From assembly GCF_001729765.1 (NCBI RefSeq), contig NZ_CP017182.1:1-47221 (forward strand): a stretch of DNA of 47,221 bases, read 5' to 3'. The notes under the pieces are model-generated. The model saw only the letters and a program-made list of their open reading frames with translations, did not search any database and was not told where the DNA came from. Positions 42,814-47,221 of this stretch are shown here, piece after piece. The first letter of the stretch is position 1. Every line of letters starts with the position of its first letter. Source of the DNA: Enterobacter kobei (lineage in GTDB: Bacteria > Pseudomonadota > Gammaproteobacteria > Enterobacterales > Enterobacteriaceae). The position numbers were made by a program, and so were the translations under genes.

Positions 42814-43291
42814 GTAAGCGTCCAGCGAGAACCGTATTGACGGGGATGCGTTATTCAATTGGCAGTGCTACGCGCCAGGGGAGTAGTTCGCTGACCCGGT
42901 TTATCGGCCAGTCCGCTATGACGTTAAGGACGTGACGGAGGTAGCTTTCTGGATCCACGCCATTCAGTTTGCACGTCCCGATCAGGCTGTACAGCAGCGC
43001 TCCTCGCTCACCACCGTGGTCAGAGCCGAAGAACAGCCAGTTTTTACGCCCCAGACTGACCAGCCGTAGCGCATTTTCAGCGATGTTGTTATCGGCTTCG
43101 GCCCAGCCATCTTCCGCATAGTACGTCAGTGCCGGCCACTGGTTCAGGGCGTACGTGAACGCTTTCGCCAGCTCCGAGTGTCGCGACAGCGTTTTCATCT
43201 TTTCACGCAGCCAGCTTTCCAGGGCTTTCAACTGTGGTTTAGCTTTTTGCTGACGTTCAGCAAGGCGTTGCTCCGCCGGCATTCCCCTTAT
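42814..43291 (-). mobile_element. IS66-family remnant, inverted relative to the complete copy
   Basis: Starts with the terminus GTAAGCGTCCAGCGAGAACC, one base different over 20 from the right end of the complete element, and carries the last ~146 codons of tnpC on the minus strand (42851-43291), with scattered amino-acid differences from the full copy (for example ALPIE for ALPTE). The match to the full tnpC stops at 43291. With 38384-40835 it frames the chemoreceptor/yqjI segment as an inverted pair. Confidence 0.92.
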
Positions 43292-43295
43292 ATGG

Positions 43296-43414
43296 CAGGT
43301 GAAAGTGCGAAGTGATTATGTGATTATCAGCGCCGAAAACATCTTAAGGGTTTTCACCTGTAACGAATTGCATGGCTTCAGGACACCCCCTCCCCGGATG
43401 GTGTCCTTTTTTTT
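43296..43414 (+). ncRNA. Possible structured RNA or leader with a strong terminator
   Basis: CAGGTGAAA (43296-43304) pairs perfectly with TTTCACCTG (43352-43360). The terminator GGACACC...GGTGTCC (43381-43406) then ends in eight T. No promoter was confirmed and no protein frame fits. It may be the 3' end of a transcript cut by the IS66 deletion at 43291. The terminator itself is convincing; the RNA is not. Confidence 0.4.
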
Positions 43415-43879
43415 AGCGCCCCTTCACGTGGTCGATAGCGAACTGCAGCGTGTCCCAGTTAAAACCGATGCCTGCATCGTGGCTGTGGTCGCAGATACGC
43501 ATGGCTTCTGCAATTTCCTCCTCCGACAGACTGCCATCGAGCGACAGAAAATCATCTTCCAGCCAGAACGTCCCCATACACAGTGCATCCGGTGGGTACT
43601 GCTTCAGCCTGGCGATGAGCCCTGCCACCGTCACATCATCACGACATGCAGGACGCGGCGGCAGGACGCGATCGGCGATGTCGTTCCAGCACCAGTCATC
43701 GCACTCCGGTACGGGTTCCAGCAGGGTCTGTAATTCCACGCCCGGCAGCAGGGAGAGCTGCTCCAGAACCTCCCCAGAGAAAGTCGCTCTCCGCTGGCAT
43801 CTTCACTCCCCAGGTAATGGTGATTGATATAGACGGCAAACTCGCCGTTATCGGGTTCAATACAGGTCAGTCTGAACAT
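43413..43879 (-). pseudogene. Plasmid hypothetical protein split by an apparent frameshift
   Basis: Two overlapping frames read as one protein of about 155 residues. The first begins at 43879 (MFRLTCIEPDNGEFAVYINHHYLGSEDASGE); the second continues near 43785 with SGEVLEQLSLLPGVELQTLLEP and ends FAIDHVKGR. The span of 467 nt is not a multiple of three, so one base is missing or two are extra. The protein is acidic and unrecognised, without signal or membrane segment. If the shift is a sequencing error the gene is intact. Confidence 0.55.
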
Positions 43880-44127
43880 GGTTGTGTCCTCAGCATCCGG
43901 CACCCTCTTGCGCCGTGCCGCCACAAAAACACGGCGTAAAGCGGAGGACGCCAGGGCGACGCCGAAGCCGCAGCGCAAGCCCTTCACGGGCTGAATGCAC
44001 CGTGCAGGGTGAGGACGGAGACAACGTGAACCCTTGCGACCGCAGCGGCCGGGTTAGCGTGAAGGCACGGCGGGTAATTTTTTACGGGAGATATAAAGCG
44101 GAGGAAAAATTTCACATTAAATTAAAA
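43880..44127. other. GC-rich non-coding stretch before the small-RNA promoter
   Basis: No gene supported. Contains short hairpin-forming segments (for example AAGCCCTTCACGGGCTGAA near 43978) and, near its end, TCACATT (about 44112) which pairs with AATGTGA of the following palindrome. Confidence 0.35.
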
Positions 44128-44160
44128 TGTGATTTACATCACAAAACAATACATTATAAT
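44128..44160 (+). promoter_or_regulatory. Near-consensus sigma-70 promoter inside a CRP-like palindrome
   Basis: TGTGA-TTTACA-TCACA (44128-44143) has both conserved half-sites of the CRP (cAMP receptor) box. A -35 TTTACA (44133-44138), 16-bp spacer and a perfect -10 TATAAT (44155-44160) overlap it. A CRP dimer there would cover the -35, so it is more likely to repress than activate. Overlap with an adjacent inverted TCACATT (44112-44118) gives two possible pairings. Confidence 0.7.
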
Positions 44161-44165
44161 CGCCG

Positions 44166-44222
44166 AAAAATTAAGCGTTTAGTTTTGACGGCAGGGATAA
44201 GATGTCACCCTGCCGTTTTTTT
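44166..44222 (+). ncRNA. Candidate small RNA of about 57 nt
   Basis: Expected start 6-7 nt after the TATAAT at 44155-44160. The transcript would have a short A/U-rich 5' part, then the stem CGGCAGGG (44189-44196) / CCCTGCCG (44208-44215) with an 11-nt loop, and seven T (44216-44222), a classic terminator. There is no credible open frame between promoter and terminator. It runs convergent to the parM operon, whose last gene ends at 44244, so it could also act on that transcript. Existence is inferred from signals only. Confidence 0.6.
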
Positions 44223-44243
44223 CTGAAGTGTACGGGACCGGAT

Positions 44244-44447
44244 TTAACGCGCAGGAGCTGCACCAATACGTCTCAGCGCATCCTCTACTTCACGCAGCCC
44301 AAAAATATCTTCCGGCGGCTGCTCTTTTCCGGACAGGCTACATACCGTAAAGACGGCATTTGATGCGGATAATCTCTCGCGGAACAACGCCTGCAGTGCC
44401 ACAACGACCAGCGTACGTTCGTCTCCTGTCAGTTCTTCAAGCTGCAT
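44244..44447 (-). CDS. Small hypothetical protein at the end of the parM operon
   Basis: 67 residues, acidic N-terminus (MQLEELTGDERTLVVVALQALFRERL), mostly helical by eye. Ribosome site GAAGGAAA precedes the ATG. It follows the membrane-protein gene by 15 bp and is likely cotranscribed with parM and the adaptor gene. Unrecognised. Confidence 0.6.
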   Translation of the reverse strand: MQLEELTGDERTLVVVALQALFRERLSASNAVFTVCSLSGKEQPPEDIFGLREVEDALRRIGAAPAR

Positions 44448-44462
44448 ACTGTTTCCTTCAGG

Positions 44463-44738
44463 TTAATGTTCATATTCATCCCCGCCCCTCTGGTTATTTC
44501 TCGTCAAACGCCAGGAGAACCCGAGGCCGATCAGTGAGGCATAGCAGACCTGCATCGCGATTGTCACCGGCAGTGAGATGTTATCAACCAGAACGCCGGG
44601 AACCACGACGGCCACGCCTGCCAGTATCATTCCCCTGCCGGTCTTTTTGACCCGTTCCGGCCACTGAGATTCAGGCACGTTCCGGGCGCGCAGAAAGTTA
44701 TGAATGCACTGCTCTGCTTTTTGTTTAATCACTGACAT
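44463..44738 (-). CDS. Hypothetical membrane protein in the parM operon
   Basis: 91 residues with two hydrophobic segments (GMILAGVAVVVPGVLV, about 36-51, and LPVTIAMQVCYASLIGLGFSW, about 56-76), between basic ends. It starts 4 bp after the adaptor gene, so it is in the same operon. Unrecognised; a membrane anchor or stability function is only a guess. Confidence 0.65.
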   Translation of the reverse strand: MSVIKQKAEQCIHNFLRARNVPESQWPERVKKTGRGMILAGVAVVVPGVLVDNISLPVTIAMQVCYASLIGLGFSWRLTRNNQRGGDEYEH

Positions 44739-44741
44739 GCT

Positions 44742-45404
44742 CTAGTCTCCGAATGCCCGGCGCATATTTTTCTTTATGCTGGTCGCTTCAGCGGATACCG
44801 GTGCGGCAGGCTCCGCTGGTTTCTCCGGCACTGCAGCCATACTCACGTCAGCCGTACCAGCCATCTGCTGAACCAGAACCTGCAGCTCGCTGACCGTGCC
44901 GGGCGGTACCGGCATACTGGCCAGCAGACGCGGCAGCTCCGGTGCGGTCGTATGCAGTGCCAGACCGGTGATAATCAGGTTTCTCAGCAGCTCTCCGCGC
45001 AGGCGGGATGACACGCCCGTCAGCACACGCTCAACCCGTTCACTGCTCCGGTCATCCTGAAGCGTCAGGGTGTAACGCCGGCGCTGGTATTCCGTCTCCG
45101 GTGACATGGCCAGAGCAGCCACGCCACCATCAGGCTCATCAGGAAGTCCTGAGAGTGAAGACCAGGTGCCGGATACCAGGGCCATCACGGCACAAAGCCG
45201 GATGGCACTCAGATGTCCGTCAAAGAACACCGGGATCAGCGCCGGTAAACGGGCATCCGTCTGGTACATCACCGCCCCGGCGGTGGCGGCGGTCCGAATG
45301 AAGTCACCGCGCAGGGGCTGTGAGATGGTGCTGATGGTCGCCATCGCCGCGATGTCGGTGCGATCGTCGCTGTGCAGATAGAAAGAATACTGGCCGTCCG
45401 GCAT
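44742..45404 (-). CDS. stbB: ParM-system adaptor (StbB family) with two ParR-like halves
   Basis: 220 residues annotated in related plasmids as a partitioning/stability protein. By eye it holds two copies of a ParR-like ribbon-helix-helix fold: residues 6-57 (YSFYLHSDDR, then FIRTAATAGAVMYQTDARLP) and 111-161 (YTLTLQDDRS, then LLRNLIITGLALHTTAPELP). The first half resembles R1 ParR at its RAALTAGLALYRQDPRTP segment. A Pro/Ala-rich linker leads to the tail SIKKNMRRAFGD, similar to the ParM-binding tail of ParR (TKKNAMKLIN). It starts 2 bp after parM ends. Normal ParR is only about 117 residues. Confidence 0.75.
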   Translation of the reverse strand: MPDGQYSFYLHSDDRTDIAAMATISTISQPLRGDFIRTAATAGAVMYQTDARLPALIPVFFDGHLSAIRLCAVMALVSGTWSSLSGLPDEPDGGVAALAMSPETEYQRRRYTLTLQDDRSSERVERVLTGVSSRLRGELLRNLIITGLALHTTAPELPRLLASMPVPPGTVSELQVLVQQMAGTADVSMAAVPEKPAEPAAPVSAEATSIKKNMRRAFGD

Positions 45405-45406
45405 GT

Positions 45407-46381
45407 TTAGTCCTCTTTATTGTAAAGGGCAATCTCTCTGGCCAGCGCCAGCTGCGGATCGCCGATAACCTCGATACGGTCAGGAGCCAGAGGCCAGGCC
45501 TGACGGATAGCCTCTTCAATGAGGGATGCCCCTCCCCCGACTAGGAATACCCGGTTAACGCTCCTGAAGACCGTCAGCTCACTGGTGACACGCGCGCCCA
45601 GGGAAGTGATTGCCTCTGTAATTTTGTTCAGAACATCGTCAATTTTTCCGGCATCGTTGATCACTCGCTGCAGATACTGACGATCATTGCGGTTGCGGAT
45701 GACCGTGTCAGCAATAAGCGCGCTGGTTTCGCTGTCTGCAGCCCGCAGCGCGCCTGCAGCTGCGCGGGTGACCTGTGACACGCCGACAGACGGATTGCCG
45801 TGTACCGCACTGATATCATCAAACTGTCCGACAATCACGCCGGCATCGAGCGTGGTTCCGCCGAGATCGATAATCAGGGTGGTCTCAGCGGGTCCGGGCT
45901 TCATCTCCGCGAGACGGGAGAACGCCGCCGGCAGTGATTCAGGCATCACCTTCACGTCCGTTACGGTAAATGCCCTGCCCTTATTCAGAACCAGCTCACG
46001 CATCAGGTTTTCTCGTTTGCGTCGGATGTTCTCCTCGTTCCGCTGGCAGTCCCCGTCATAATACTCGCTCAGGGGCAGCGTCACGGTCAGGCTCACCGGC
46101 TGCGGCTCAAGTCCGCTGTTCAGCAGGGCATGATGCACGGCCAGCAGGTTGAGATCACCGTACTGGTATTCCACGTTTGTTGTCGGGATGGCATCCCGGC
46201 TGAAGCTGTCCCAGGTGTATTTCAGCGTGCCCACCTGATAGTTGAACGTTGCGGCACTGAATTCCGCCACTTTCCAGCCATGCCGGAAGGAGTTAGCAGA
46301 AACCCGGGTCTGCAGCTCGTTTCCTTCAAACCATGCCAGCTTAACATTAGTTGAACCATCATCGCAGTAAATATTCATCAT
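45407..46381 (-). CDS. parM: ParM/StbA actin-like partition ATPase
   Basis: 324 residues of the ParM (StbA) family, which forms filaments pushing plasmid copies apart. Actin-type motifs: phosphate 1 DDGSTNVKLAW (7-17), VMPESLPAAF, phosphate 2 LIIDLGGTTLDAG (about 169-181), and VFLVGGGASLIEEAI in the adenosine region. The family resemblance to R1 ParM runs end to end. Ribosome site GGAG lies just before two adjacent ATGs. The operon continues with the adaptor gene and two small genes. This is a second partition system beside sopABC. Confidence 0.95.
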   Translation of the reverse strand: MMNIYCDDGSTNVKLAWFEGNELQTRVSANSFRHGWKVAEFSAATFNYQVGTLKYTWDSFSRDAIPTTNVEYQYGDLNLLAVHHALLNSGLEPQPVSLTVTLPLSEYYDGDCQRNEENIRRKRENLMRELVLNKGRAFTVTDVKVMPESLPAAFSRLAEMKPGPAETTLIIDLGGTTLDAGVIVGQFDDISAVHGNPSVGVSQVTRAAAGALRAADSETSALIADTVIRNRNDRQYLQRVINDAGKIDDVLNKITEAITSLGARVTSELTVFRSVNRVFLVGGGASLIEEAIRQAWPLAPDRIEVIGDPQLALAREIALYNKED

Positions 46382-46567
46382 TATGCTCCGTCAATTAAAC
46401 TCAATTTGATACATATTATAAGAGCAAAATGGCAAAATAAAGCCATGCTTCTCATTATGAGTAATTTAAATGTCCCATAATGATATTAAATAGCATTTTG
46501 AGTAACTTAGGTTACTCACCCTGTTCATGAAGCAGGTGATCTGGATTATCCTCACGCTGTTAAATAT
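46382..46567. promoter_or_regulatory. Putative parM centromere/promoter region
   Basis: AT-rich, divergent between parM and umuD. Holds a perfect inverted repeat TGAGTAAC-TTAG-GTTACTCA (46499-46518), related half-sites ATGAGTAA near 46478, and ATGGC/GCCAT. In ParM systems the ParR-binding centromere lies directly before parM, so these repeats are candidates, but no tidy iteron array like R1 parC is seen. Confidence 0.5.
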
Positions 46568-46587
46568 ACTGTATGCATAACCAGTAT
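46568..46587 (+). promoter_or_regulatory. LexA (SOS) box of umuDC
   Basis: TACTGTATGCATAACCAGTA contains the LexA core CTG-N10-CAG with A/T-rich centre. It ends 21 bp before the umuD start, overlapping the likely promoter. Confidence 0.92.
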
Positions 46588-46608
46588 ATTTAGACGTCAG
46601 GAGGAAAG

Positions 46609-47040
46609 ATGAAACTGCAGCTTTTCAGCACCGGGAAAGCACTCCCGCCACAGGCCCATCCGTTGTTTGCAGACCTGGCCAGCTGCGGTTTTCCGAGCCC
46701 TGCCGCTGACTATGTCGAGTCCGACCTGGATCTCCATGATTACTGCATACGGCACCCGAGCGCGACTTACTATCTCCGTGCCAGCGGTGACAGCATGTCC
46801 GACGGCAGCCTTTACAATGGCGATCTGCTGGTTGTGGACAGTGCAGAGAAGCCCCGGCACGGCGATATTGTTGTGGCCAGCGTGCAGGGGGAGTTTACGG
46901 TTAAACGGCTTCTGCTGACGCCACGACTGACGCTGCAGCCAATGAACGCCGCCTGGCCGCCGATTTATCCCGACCCGGACGATCTGGATATCTTTGGCGT
47001 CGTCACGCACATCATCCACCGCCCGAGGGAGATGTACTGA
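46609..47040 (+). CDS. umuD: UmuD, SOS mutagenesis protein (self-cleaving Pol V subunit)
   Basis: 143 residues after an AGGAGG site. RecA-stimulated self-cleavage at Cys26-Gly27 (ASCGFPSP) removes the N-terminal arm to form UmuD'. The catalytic pair is Ser62 (SGDSMSDG) and Lys99 (FTVKR). The length matches UmuD/MucA/ImpA. It is controlled by the LexA box upstream; the umuC start overlaps its stop (TGATG). Confidence 0.96.
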
Positions 47041-47221
47041 TGTTTGCCCTGGCCGATGTGAACAGCTTTTATGCCAGCTGCGAACGTGTTTTCCGCCCGG
47101 ATTTGCAAGGAAAGCCGGTTGTGGTGCTCAGTAATAACGATGGCTGCGTTATCGCAAGAAGTGCCGAGGCAAAGCCCTGGATCAAAATGGGCATGCCGTG
47201 GTTTCAGATGAAAAACGAAAC
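47040..47221 (+). CDS. umuC: UmuC, DNA polymerase V catalytic subunit (5' part; continues at base 1)
   Basis: The first 60 codons ([20 protein letters not shown], then [15 protein letters not shown]) include the first catalytic Asp of the Y-family polymerases (Asp6) and the dNTP-binding NNDGCVIAR. The ATG overlaps the umuD TGA. The frame runs to the last base and resumes at base 1, so the DNA is circular. Divergence from E. coli UmuC around [18 protein letters not shown] is normal for plasmid homologues. Confidence 0.96.

Follow-up and report, generated by a model that had tools for sequence, protein, structure and literature searches.

A 220 aa ParR/StbB protein encoded near one end of an Enterobacter kobei contig (NZ_CP017182.1; hereafter the window, which is the entire contig of 47,221 bases) holds two ParR folds in a single chain, and represents a widespread and real variant of ParR. 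Its open reading frame (ORF; 44742–45404, minus strand, ATG start) lies directly downstream of the gene for the partner filament protein ParM/StbA, on the same strand and two bases apart. ParM (324 aa; 45407–46381, minus strand) is R1-like, contains PF06406 (StbA_N) and PF21523 domains and finds its best Protein Data Bank (PDB) match in ParM 4a62 (E 5.7e-77). We consider it likely that the 220 aa protein is the centromere-binding adaptor of a type II ParM partition system, acting as a one-chain pseudo-dimer that presents one ParM tail per DNA-binding unit.

The doubled domain content is evident at the family level. Pfam PF10784 (Plasmid_stab_B, the ParR N-terminal domain) matches two stretches of the protein, scored apart at 90.5 and 70.3 bits against a cut-off of 25: residues 5–74 (half 1; 45183–45392, minus strand) and about residues 109–177 (half 2; 44874–45080, minus strand), separated by a linker of residues 85–106 (45087–45152, minus strand) in which predicted model confidence (pLDDT) falls below 50 at residues 91–103. 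PHROG_8671 ('partition protein') likewise matches two stretches, PF10784 is the only Pfam family to match at E values up to 1, with no assignment to the TraY family PF05509, and NCBIfam holds no family for the protein. The initial annotation had aligned residues 6–57 with residues 111–161 and counted 15 identities with one gap, a count that proved exact. Local alignment of residues 1–90 with residues 101–195 scores 64, compared with at most 49 for 2000 shuffled versions of the second half (mean 24.2, sd 4.4), and profile-profile comparison of the two halves, drawn from a 76-row alignment, returns a probability of 97.6 (P 2.8e-12, 69 columns, 23% identity).

Each half also leads independently to ParR. 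Residues 1–80 and residues 105–187, searched alone, match PDB chain 2jd3 ('StbB protein', the ParR of pB171) at E 3.1e-7 and 2.5e-7, respectively, in both cases as the sole significant chain. A profile of 68 relatives carrying a single fold matches 2jd3 at E 1.7e-49, and these one-fold relatives can therefore be taken as the family of the solved pB171 ParR. The proposed resemblance of each half to ParR is thus borne out with pB171 ParR and other one-fold relatives as the reference, rather than with the R1 ParR sequence originally quoted.

Structure prediction agrees with this division. ParR topology, as given in a review (PMC5016525), consists of a strand and five helices followed by a conserved C-terminal tail, and this arrangement appears twice in the AlphaFold model of the window protein, ahead of a single tail helix at residues 209–218. 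Models of both the window protein and a 38%-identical relative contain a strand and four helices, twice, and then one tail helix; the short fifth helix is not called in the relative. Both halves are therefore predicted as strand-helix-helix units with further ParR helices, and each half has a significant ParR profile match, so that neither outcome named as refuting in the initial annotation was seen. Among solved structures, both models find their best match in F TraY, a known one-chain ribbon-helix-helix monomer; 2jd3 was missing from the structural-search rows, which is uninformative either way, and a viral structure library gave no significant match. Each model contains only two strands, one per half (in the window protein residues 5–11, 45372–45392, and residues 108–114, 45063–45083, both minus strand), so the strands of the two halves would pair with each other. 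Such pairing most likely lies within the chain, a reading taken from single-chain predictions that accommodate pairing within and between chains alike.

The two strands differ in what they retain of the one-fold signature. We compared a one-fold set of 68 sequences (53 of the 120 listed among 207 matches, plus 15 from loci) with a two-fold alignment of 76 rows, in which sequences picked by hand as almost complete and not closely duplicated are joined by L001, one of the fetched loci described below. In one-fold proteins the strand starts with Arg or Asn (one Asp), then Lys or Arg, then Lys (one Arg), and four places further carries Tyr in 67 of 68 sequences and Trp in the other; two places past the Tyr stands His (41), Tyr (19), Asn (4), Arg (3) or Gln (1). 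Half 2 starts its strand with Arg108-Arg109-Arg110 in 76/76 rows and has no Tyr at position 114 (0/76) and never His or Tyr at position 116. Half 1, which is lacking in one row, replaces the second basic residue of the arm by Gly4 in 75/75 rows and carries Tyr9 in 75/75, with His (59), Tyr (14) or Asn (2) at position 11; the window protein has Tyr9 and His11. The one-fold strand signature is therefore divided between the halves, half 2 retaining the paired basic arm and half 1 the Tyr-x-His stretch. The earlier suggestion that each half can specialise is supported in detail by these counts. Outside the strand, both halves retain Arg-Gly ahead of the second helix and an Arg four to five places on, with Arg32-Gly33 invariant in half 1 and Arg134, Arg136 and Arg141, along with Arg108–110, invariant in half 2.

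With antiparallel pairing of residues 5–11 and 108–114 (position sum 119), Tyr9 would face Arg110 and His11 would face Arg108 at one end of the ribbon, as derived from DSSP ranges rather than from coordinates. We tentatively propose, as a possibility somewhat less probable than its opposite, a ribbon with one complete reading end, where the Arg arm of half 2 faces the Tyr/His of half 1, and one worn end, such that a site could be bound in a fixed orientation and would carry just one ParM tail. This natural half-tail segregation complex would have about five tails, compared with ten for a homodimer occupying the same sites. Retention of Lys5 in 53 of 75 first halves weakens the worn-end reading. 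Compensation in side-chain volume between a small half 1 and a large half 2 looked plausible in two helix columns and failed over 32 core columns, and a search for covariation between the halves returned no signal.

Only one end of the chain carries a ParR-like tail. Of 75 two-fold proteins, 73 have the motif NM within their last 14 residues, and none of the 75 linkers, which measure 23–29 residues, contains NM with Lys or Arg after it. In the window protein the tail corresponds to the predicted helix at residues 209–218 (44751–44780, minus strand; low confidence), presumed to bind ParM by analogy with ParR (PMC5016525). With one tail per chain, each DNA-binding unit would have a single tail, provided that the unit consists of one chain. 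The proposal of a single-chain pseudo-dimer with one tail per unit is upheld for the number of tails per chain and for strand pairing in the models, and pairing within the chain would complete it; an altered ring stoichiometry might follow.

The region upstream of parM contains putative parC operator sites that link the two-fold protein to its one-fold relatives. Using a pattern derived from one-fold loci, which makes the scores of those loci partly circular, we found two sites matching at least 9/12 positions upstream of parM in the window, where 0.15 would be expected by chance according to 300 dinucleotide shuffles (P 0.003), and seven places at 8/12 against 1.01 expected. Four of the seven were kept, and three were dropped (two nearer umuD and one beside site C). 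On the minus strand, the retained sites are A (TGAACA-GGG-TGAGTA, 46513–46527, right half intact), B (TACTCA-AAA-TGCTAT, 46490–46504, left half intact), D (TACTCA-TAA-TGAGAA, 46449–46463, 11/12) and E (GTATCA-AAT-TGAGTT, 46398–46412), the last beside a TATAAT-like hexamer recognised by eye; a promoter scan called nothing at the parM start. A degenerate site C (46472–46486, minus strand, 6/12 by eye), missed by the scan, was placed from the spacing in relatives, and the resulting distances between the centres of A to E are 23, 18, 23 and 51.

Four near-perfect TACTCA-N3-TGAGTA sites (at least 10/12 each, at most 0.03 expected) lie upstream of parM in each of the one-fold loci L002, L004 and L030. 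At least one site at 10/12 or better is found in 7 of 11 one-fold loci (none in L033, L034, L035 and L039), and at least one at 10/12 in 8 of 9 two-fold loci (none in L001). An operator alignment of 13 two-fold loci and the one-fold locus L002 (L001, L024, L025 and L037 being left out) has 20 invariant columns, 14 of which are the letters CTCA...TGA of site D and TCA...TGAG of site E. Two CTCA-N3-TGAG-type sites are thus common to two-fold loci and their nearest one-fold relative, and the two-fold protein therefore seems, on this sequence comparison, to share its operator with the homodimeric relatives, as would be expected if a single chain takes the place of the dimer. A requirement of two-fold proteins for asymmetric sites was considered and rejected: the clade of the window has sites in which one half is worn, but the sites of the distant L023, L026 and L040 are nearly symmetric.

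Taken together, these features can be accommodated by a mechanism that starts with the doubling of an ancestral ParR of about 130 residues, yielding one chain that would supply both ribbon-helix-helix halves with their helical caps and a single C-terminal tail. The half 1 strand would pair antiparallel with the half 2 strand of the same chain, one chain would occupy each CTCA-N3-TGAG site, of which there are about five upstream of parM, and the chains would be arranged along the DNA in the manner of ParR dimers, possibly as an array or ring; the protein may also repress parM. At each site one tail, not two, would then reach the end of the ParM filament.

The same observations can be read with other partners for the halves. 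A domain swap, in which half 1 would pair with half 2 of the next chain and link neighbouring units in a closed dimer or a running chain, gains some plausibility from a poorly modelled linker that could perhaps reach a neighbour and from the side-by-side placement of ParR units in arrays (PMC5016525), and the divided strand residues would fit any pairing of a half 1 with a half 2, within or between chains. We nevertheless regard such a swap as unlikely, as nothing positive points to it and pairing within the chain is the simplest arrangement, with a precedent in F TraY. A lower probability still attaches to pairing of like with like, whereby half 1 and half 2 would each join its counterpart in a second chain to form a dimer that holds two sites through two ribbon-helix-helix units. 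Each half does retain the ParR secondary-structure elements, and some sites lie 18–23 bp apart; yet the strand face would be incomplete at both ends of either unit, given the universal Gly4 in half 1 and the missing Tyr in half 2 (the frequent Lys5 notwithstanding), while one-fold ParRs keep both strand features, and the sites retain the palindromic core of one-fold relatives.

Least probable of all, and in our view very doubtful, is that only one half reads DNA while the other persists as a degenerate copy serving structure or contacts between units. Wide variation at strand positions 114 and 116 of half 2 is what a relaxed domain would display, but the invariant arginines of half 2 (108–110, 134, 136 and 141), together with Arg32-Gly33 and the constant Tyr9 of half 1, argue for constraint on both. 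Pairing of the two halves within one chain remains the reading we favour.

Two-fold ParR is not confined to the window. A tblastn search of PLSDB matched 2394 of 72,556 records, 1724 of them Klebsiella, and in 1978 of the 2394 a single place spans 80% or more of the 220-residue query, a measure of coverage rather than a count of domains per record. Complete E. coli genomes contain a near match in 58 of 5426 cases, with coverage of 80% or more in 57 of these, and all 59 places are on plasmids. Among the loci we fetched, L001 (Salmonella), L015–L026, L037, L038 and L040 are two-fold, and one-fold proteins of 119–147 aa lie beside ParM in L002–L006, L027–L036 and L039. Of 394 genomes of the order, seven have a match at E 0.001, and only the window's own is two-fold. 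Locus L011 has a one-fold ParR beside ParM on a 4.95-Mb contig, probably chromosomal, and not all family members are therefore on plasmids. Three further loci on large contigs (L012, L013 and L014) have ORFs of 202–324 aa that match PF10784 once and weakly and end in a ParR-like C-terminus; they were left aside. In the database proteins P0078 and P0089, the precomputed domains place ParM and ParR on the same chain, through either fusion or sequencing error. A scan of viral contigs with the window protein, whose reach is limited to close relatives, produced 25 pattern matches, none of them a relative, and tblastn against phage records at E 0.001 gave no match.

To place the doubling, a domain tree was built from 79 sequences (33 second halves, 20 first halves and 26 one-fold domains, reduced at 80% identity from 219) over 80 columns. 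All first halves fall on one side of a branch with support of 100/100, as do all second halves, and the one-fold rows need two changes, the nearest being L002 (Serratia) and P0244. This unrooted tree of few columns fits a single doubling event. The Serratia one-fold ParR, a neighbour of the two-fold halves in the tree and similar to them in much of its site spacing, is perhaps like the form that preceded the doubling.

A Citrobacter portucalensis plasmid record (NZ_AP022488.1) matches the first 25 kb of the window and positions 43300–47221 at 99.9%. The ParR gene is followed downstream by two small ORFs (44463–44738 and 44244–44447) with no Pfam family above cut-off and no NCBIfam or PHROGs match at the limits used, and Rfam has no match within 43000–47221. 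Genes for umuD and/or a umuC-type polymerase adjoin parMR in the window (46609–47221) and in six fetched plasmids, L001, L003, L006, L028, L029 and L040, which include both one-fold and two-fold kinds. Between the parM and umuD starts, at 46569–46584, lies a sequence noted by eye that we take to be LexA-box-like, so that an SOS operator and parC may both lie in this divergent region.

Like pB171 ParR/StbB and its one-fold relatives (PF10784; 2jd3), the window protein has the same domain family in each half, an adjacent ParM gene and a C-terminal tail, and one-fold loci likewise place the operator upstream of parM, in many cases with a CTCA-N3-TGAG core and in L002 with nearly the same spacing. 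With two folds per chain it is a variant rather than a typical member of the family: pB171-type ParR has one domain per chain and is described as a homodimer (PMC5016525), hence two tails per unit, its own strand has both basic arm and Tyr-Leu-His, and several of its loci have nearly perfect TACTCA-N3-TGAGTA palindromes. The ParR of pSK41, described in the same review as a ribbon-helix-helix protein forming a helical array on parC with the tails inside, differs in being a dimer on repeats of another sequence, and no sequence match to it appeared. An architectural parallel is F TraY (PDB 9f0x–9f12), which according to PMC12117103 is a one-chain ribbon-helix-helix monomer with a one-motif dimeric relative in the TraY of the sister plasmid R1. 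F TraY is likewise plasmid-encoded, although it belongs to another sequence family (PF05509) and serves the relaxosome and conjugation, not ParM. We recognised no description of a two-fold ParR in the literature searched; most subscription papers were beyond reach, and absence from print is not claimed.

Why the binding of ParR to ParM requires such a large cluster of tails is a question raised in a review (PMC5016525). If confirmed, a natural ParR whose DNA-binding units each carry a single tail would let the requirement for tail number be tested directly. It would also provide, beside F and R1 TraY, a second case in which a plasmid ribbon-helix-helix homodimer has been replaced by a one-chain version, in this instance with the strand residues divided between the two halves.
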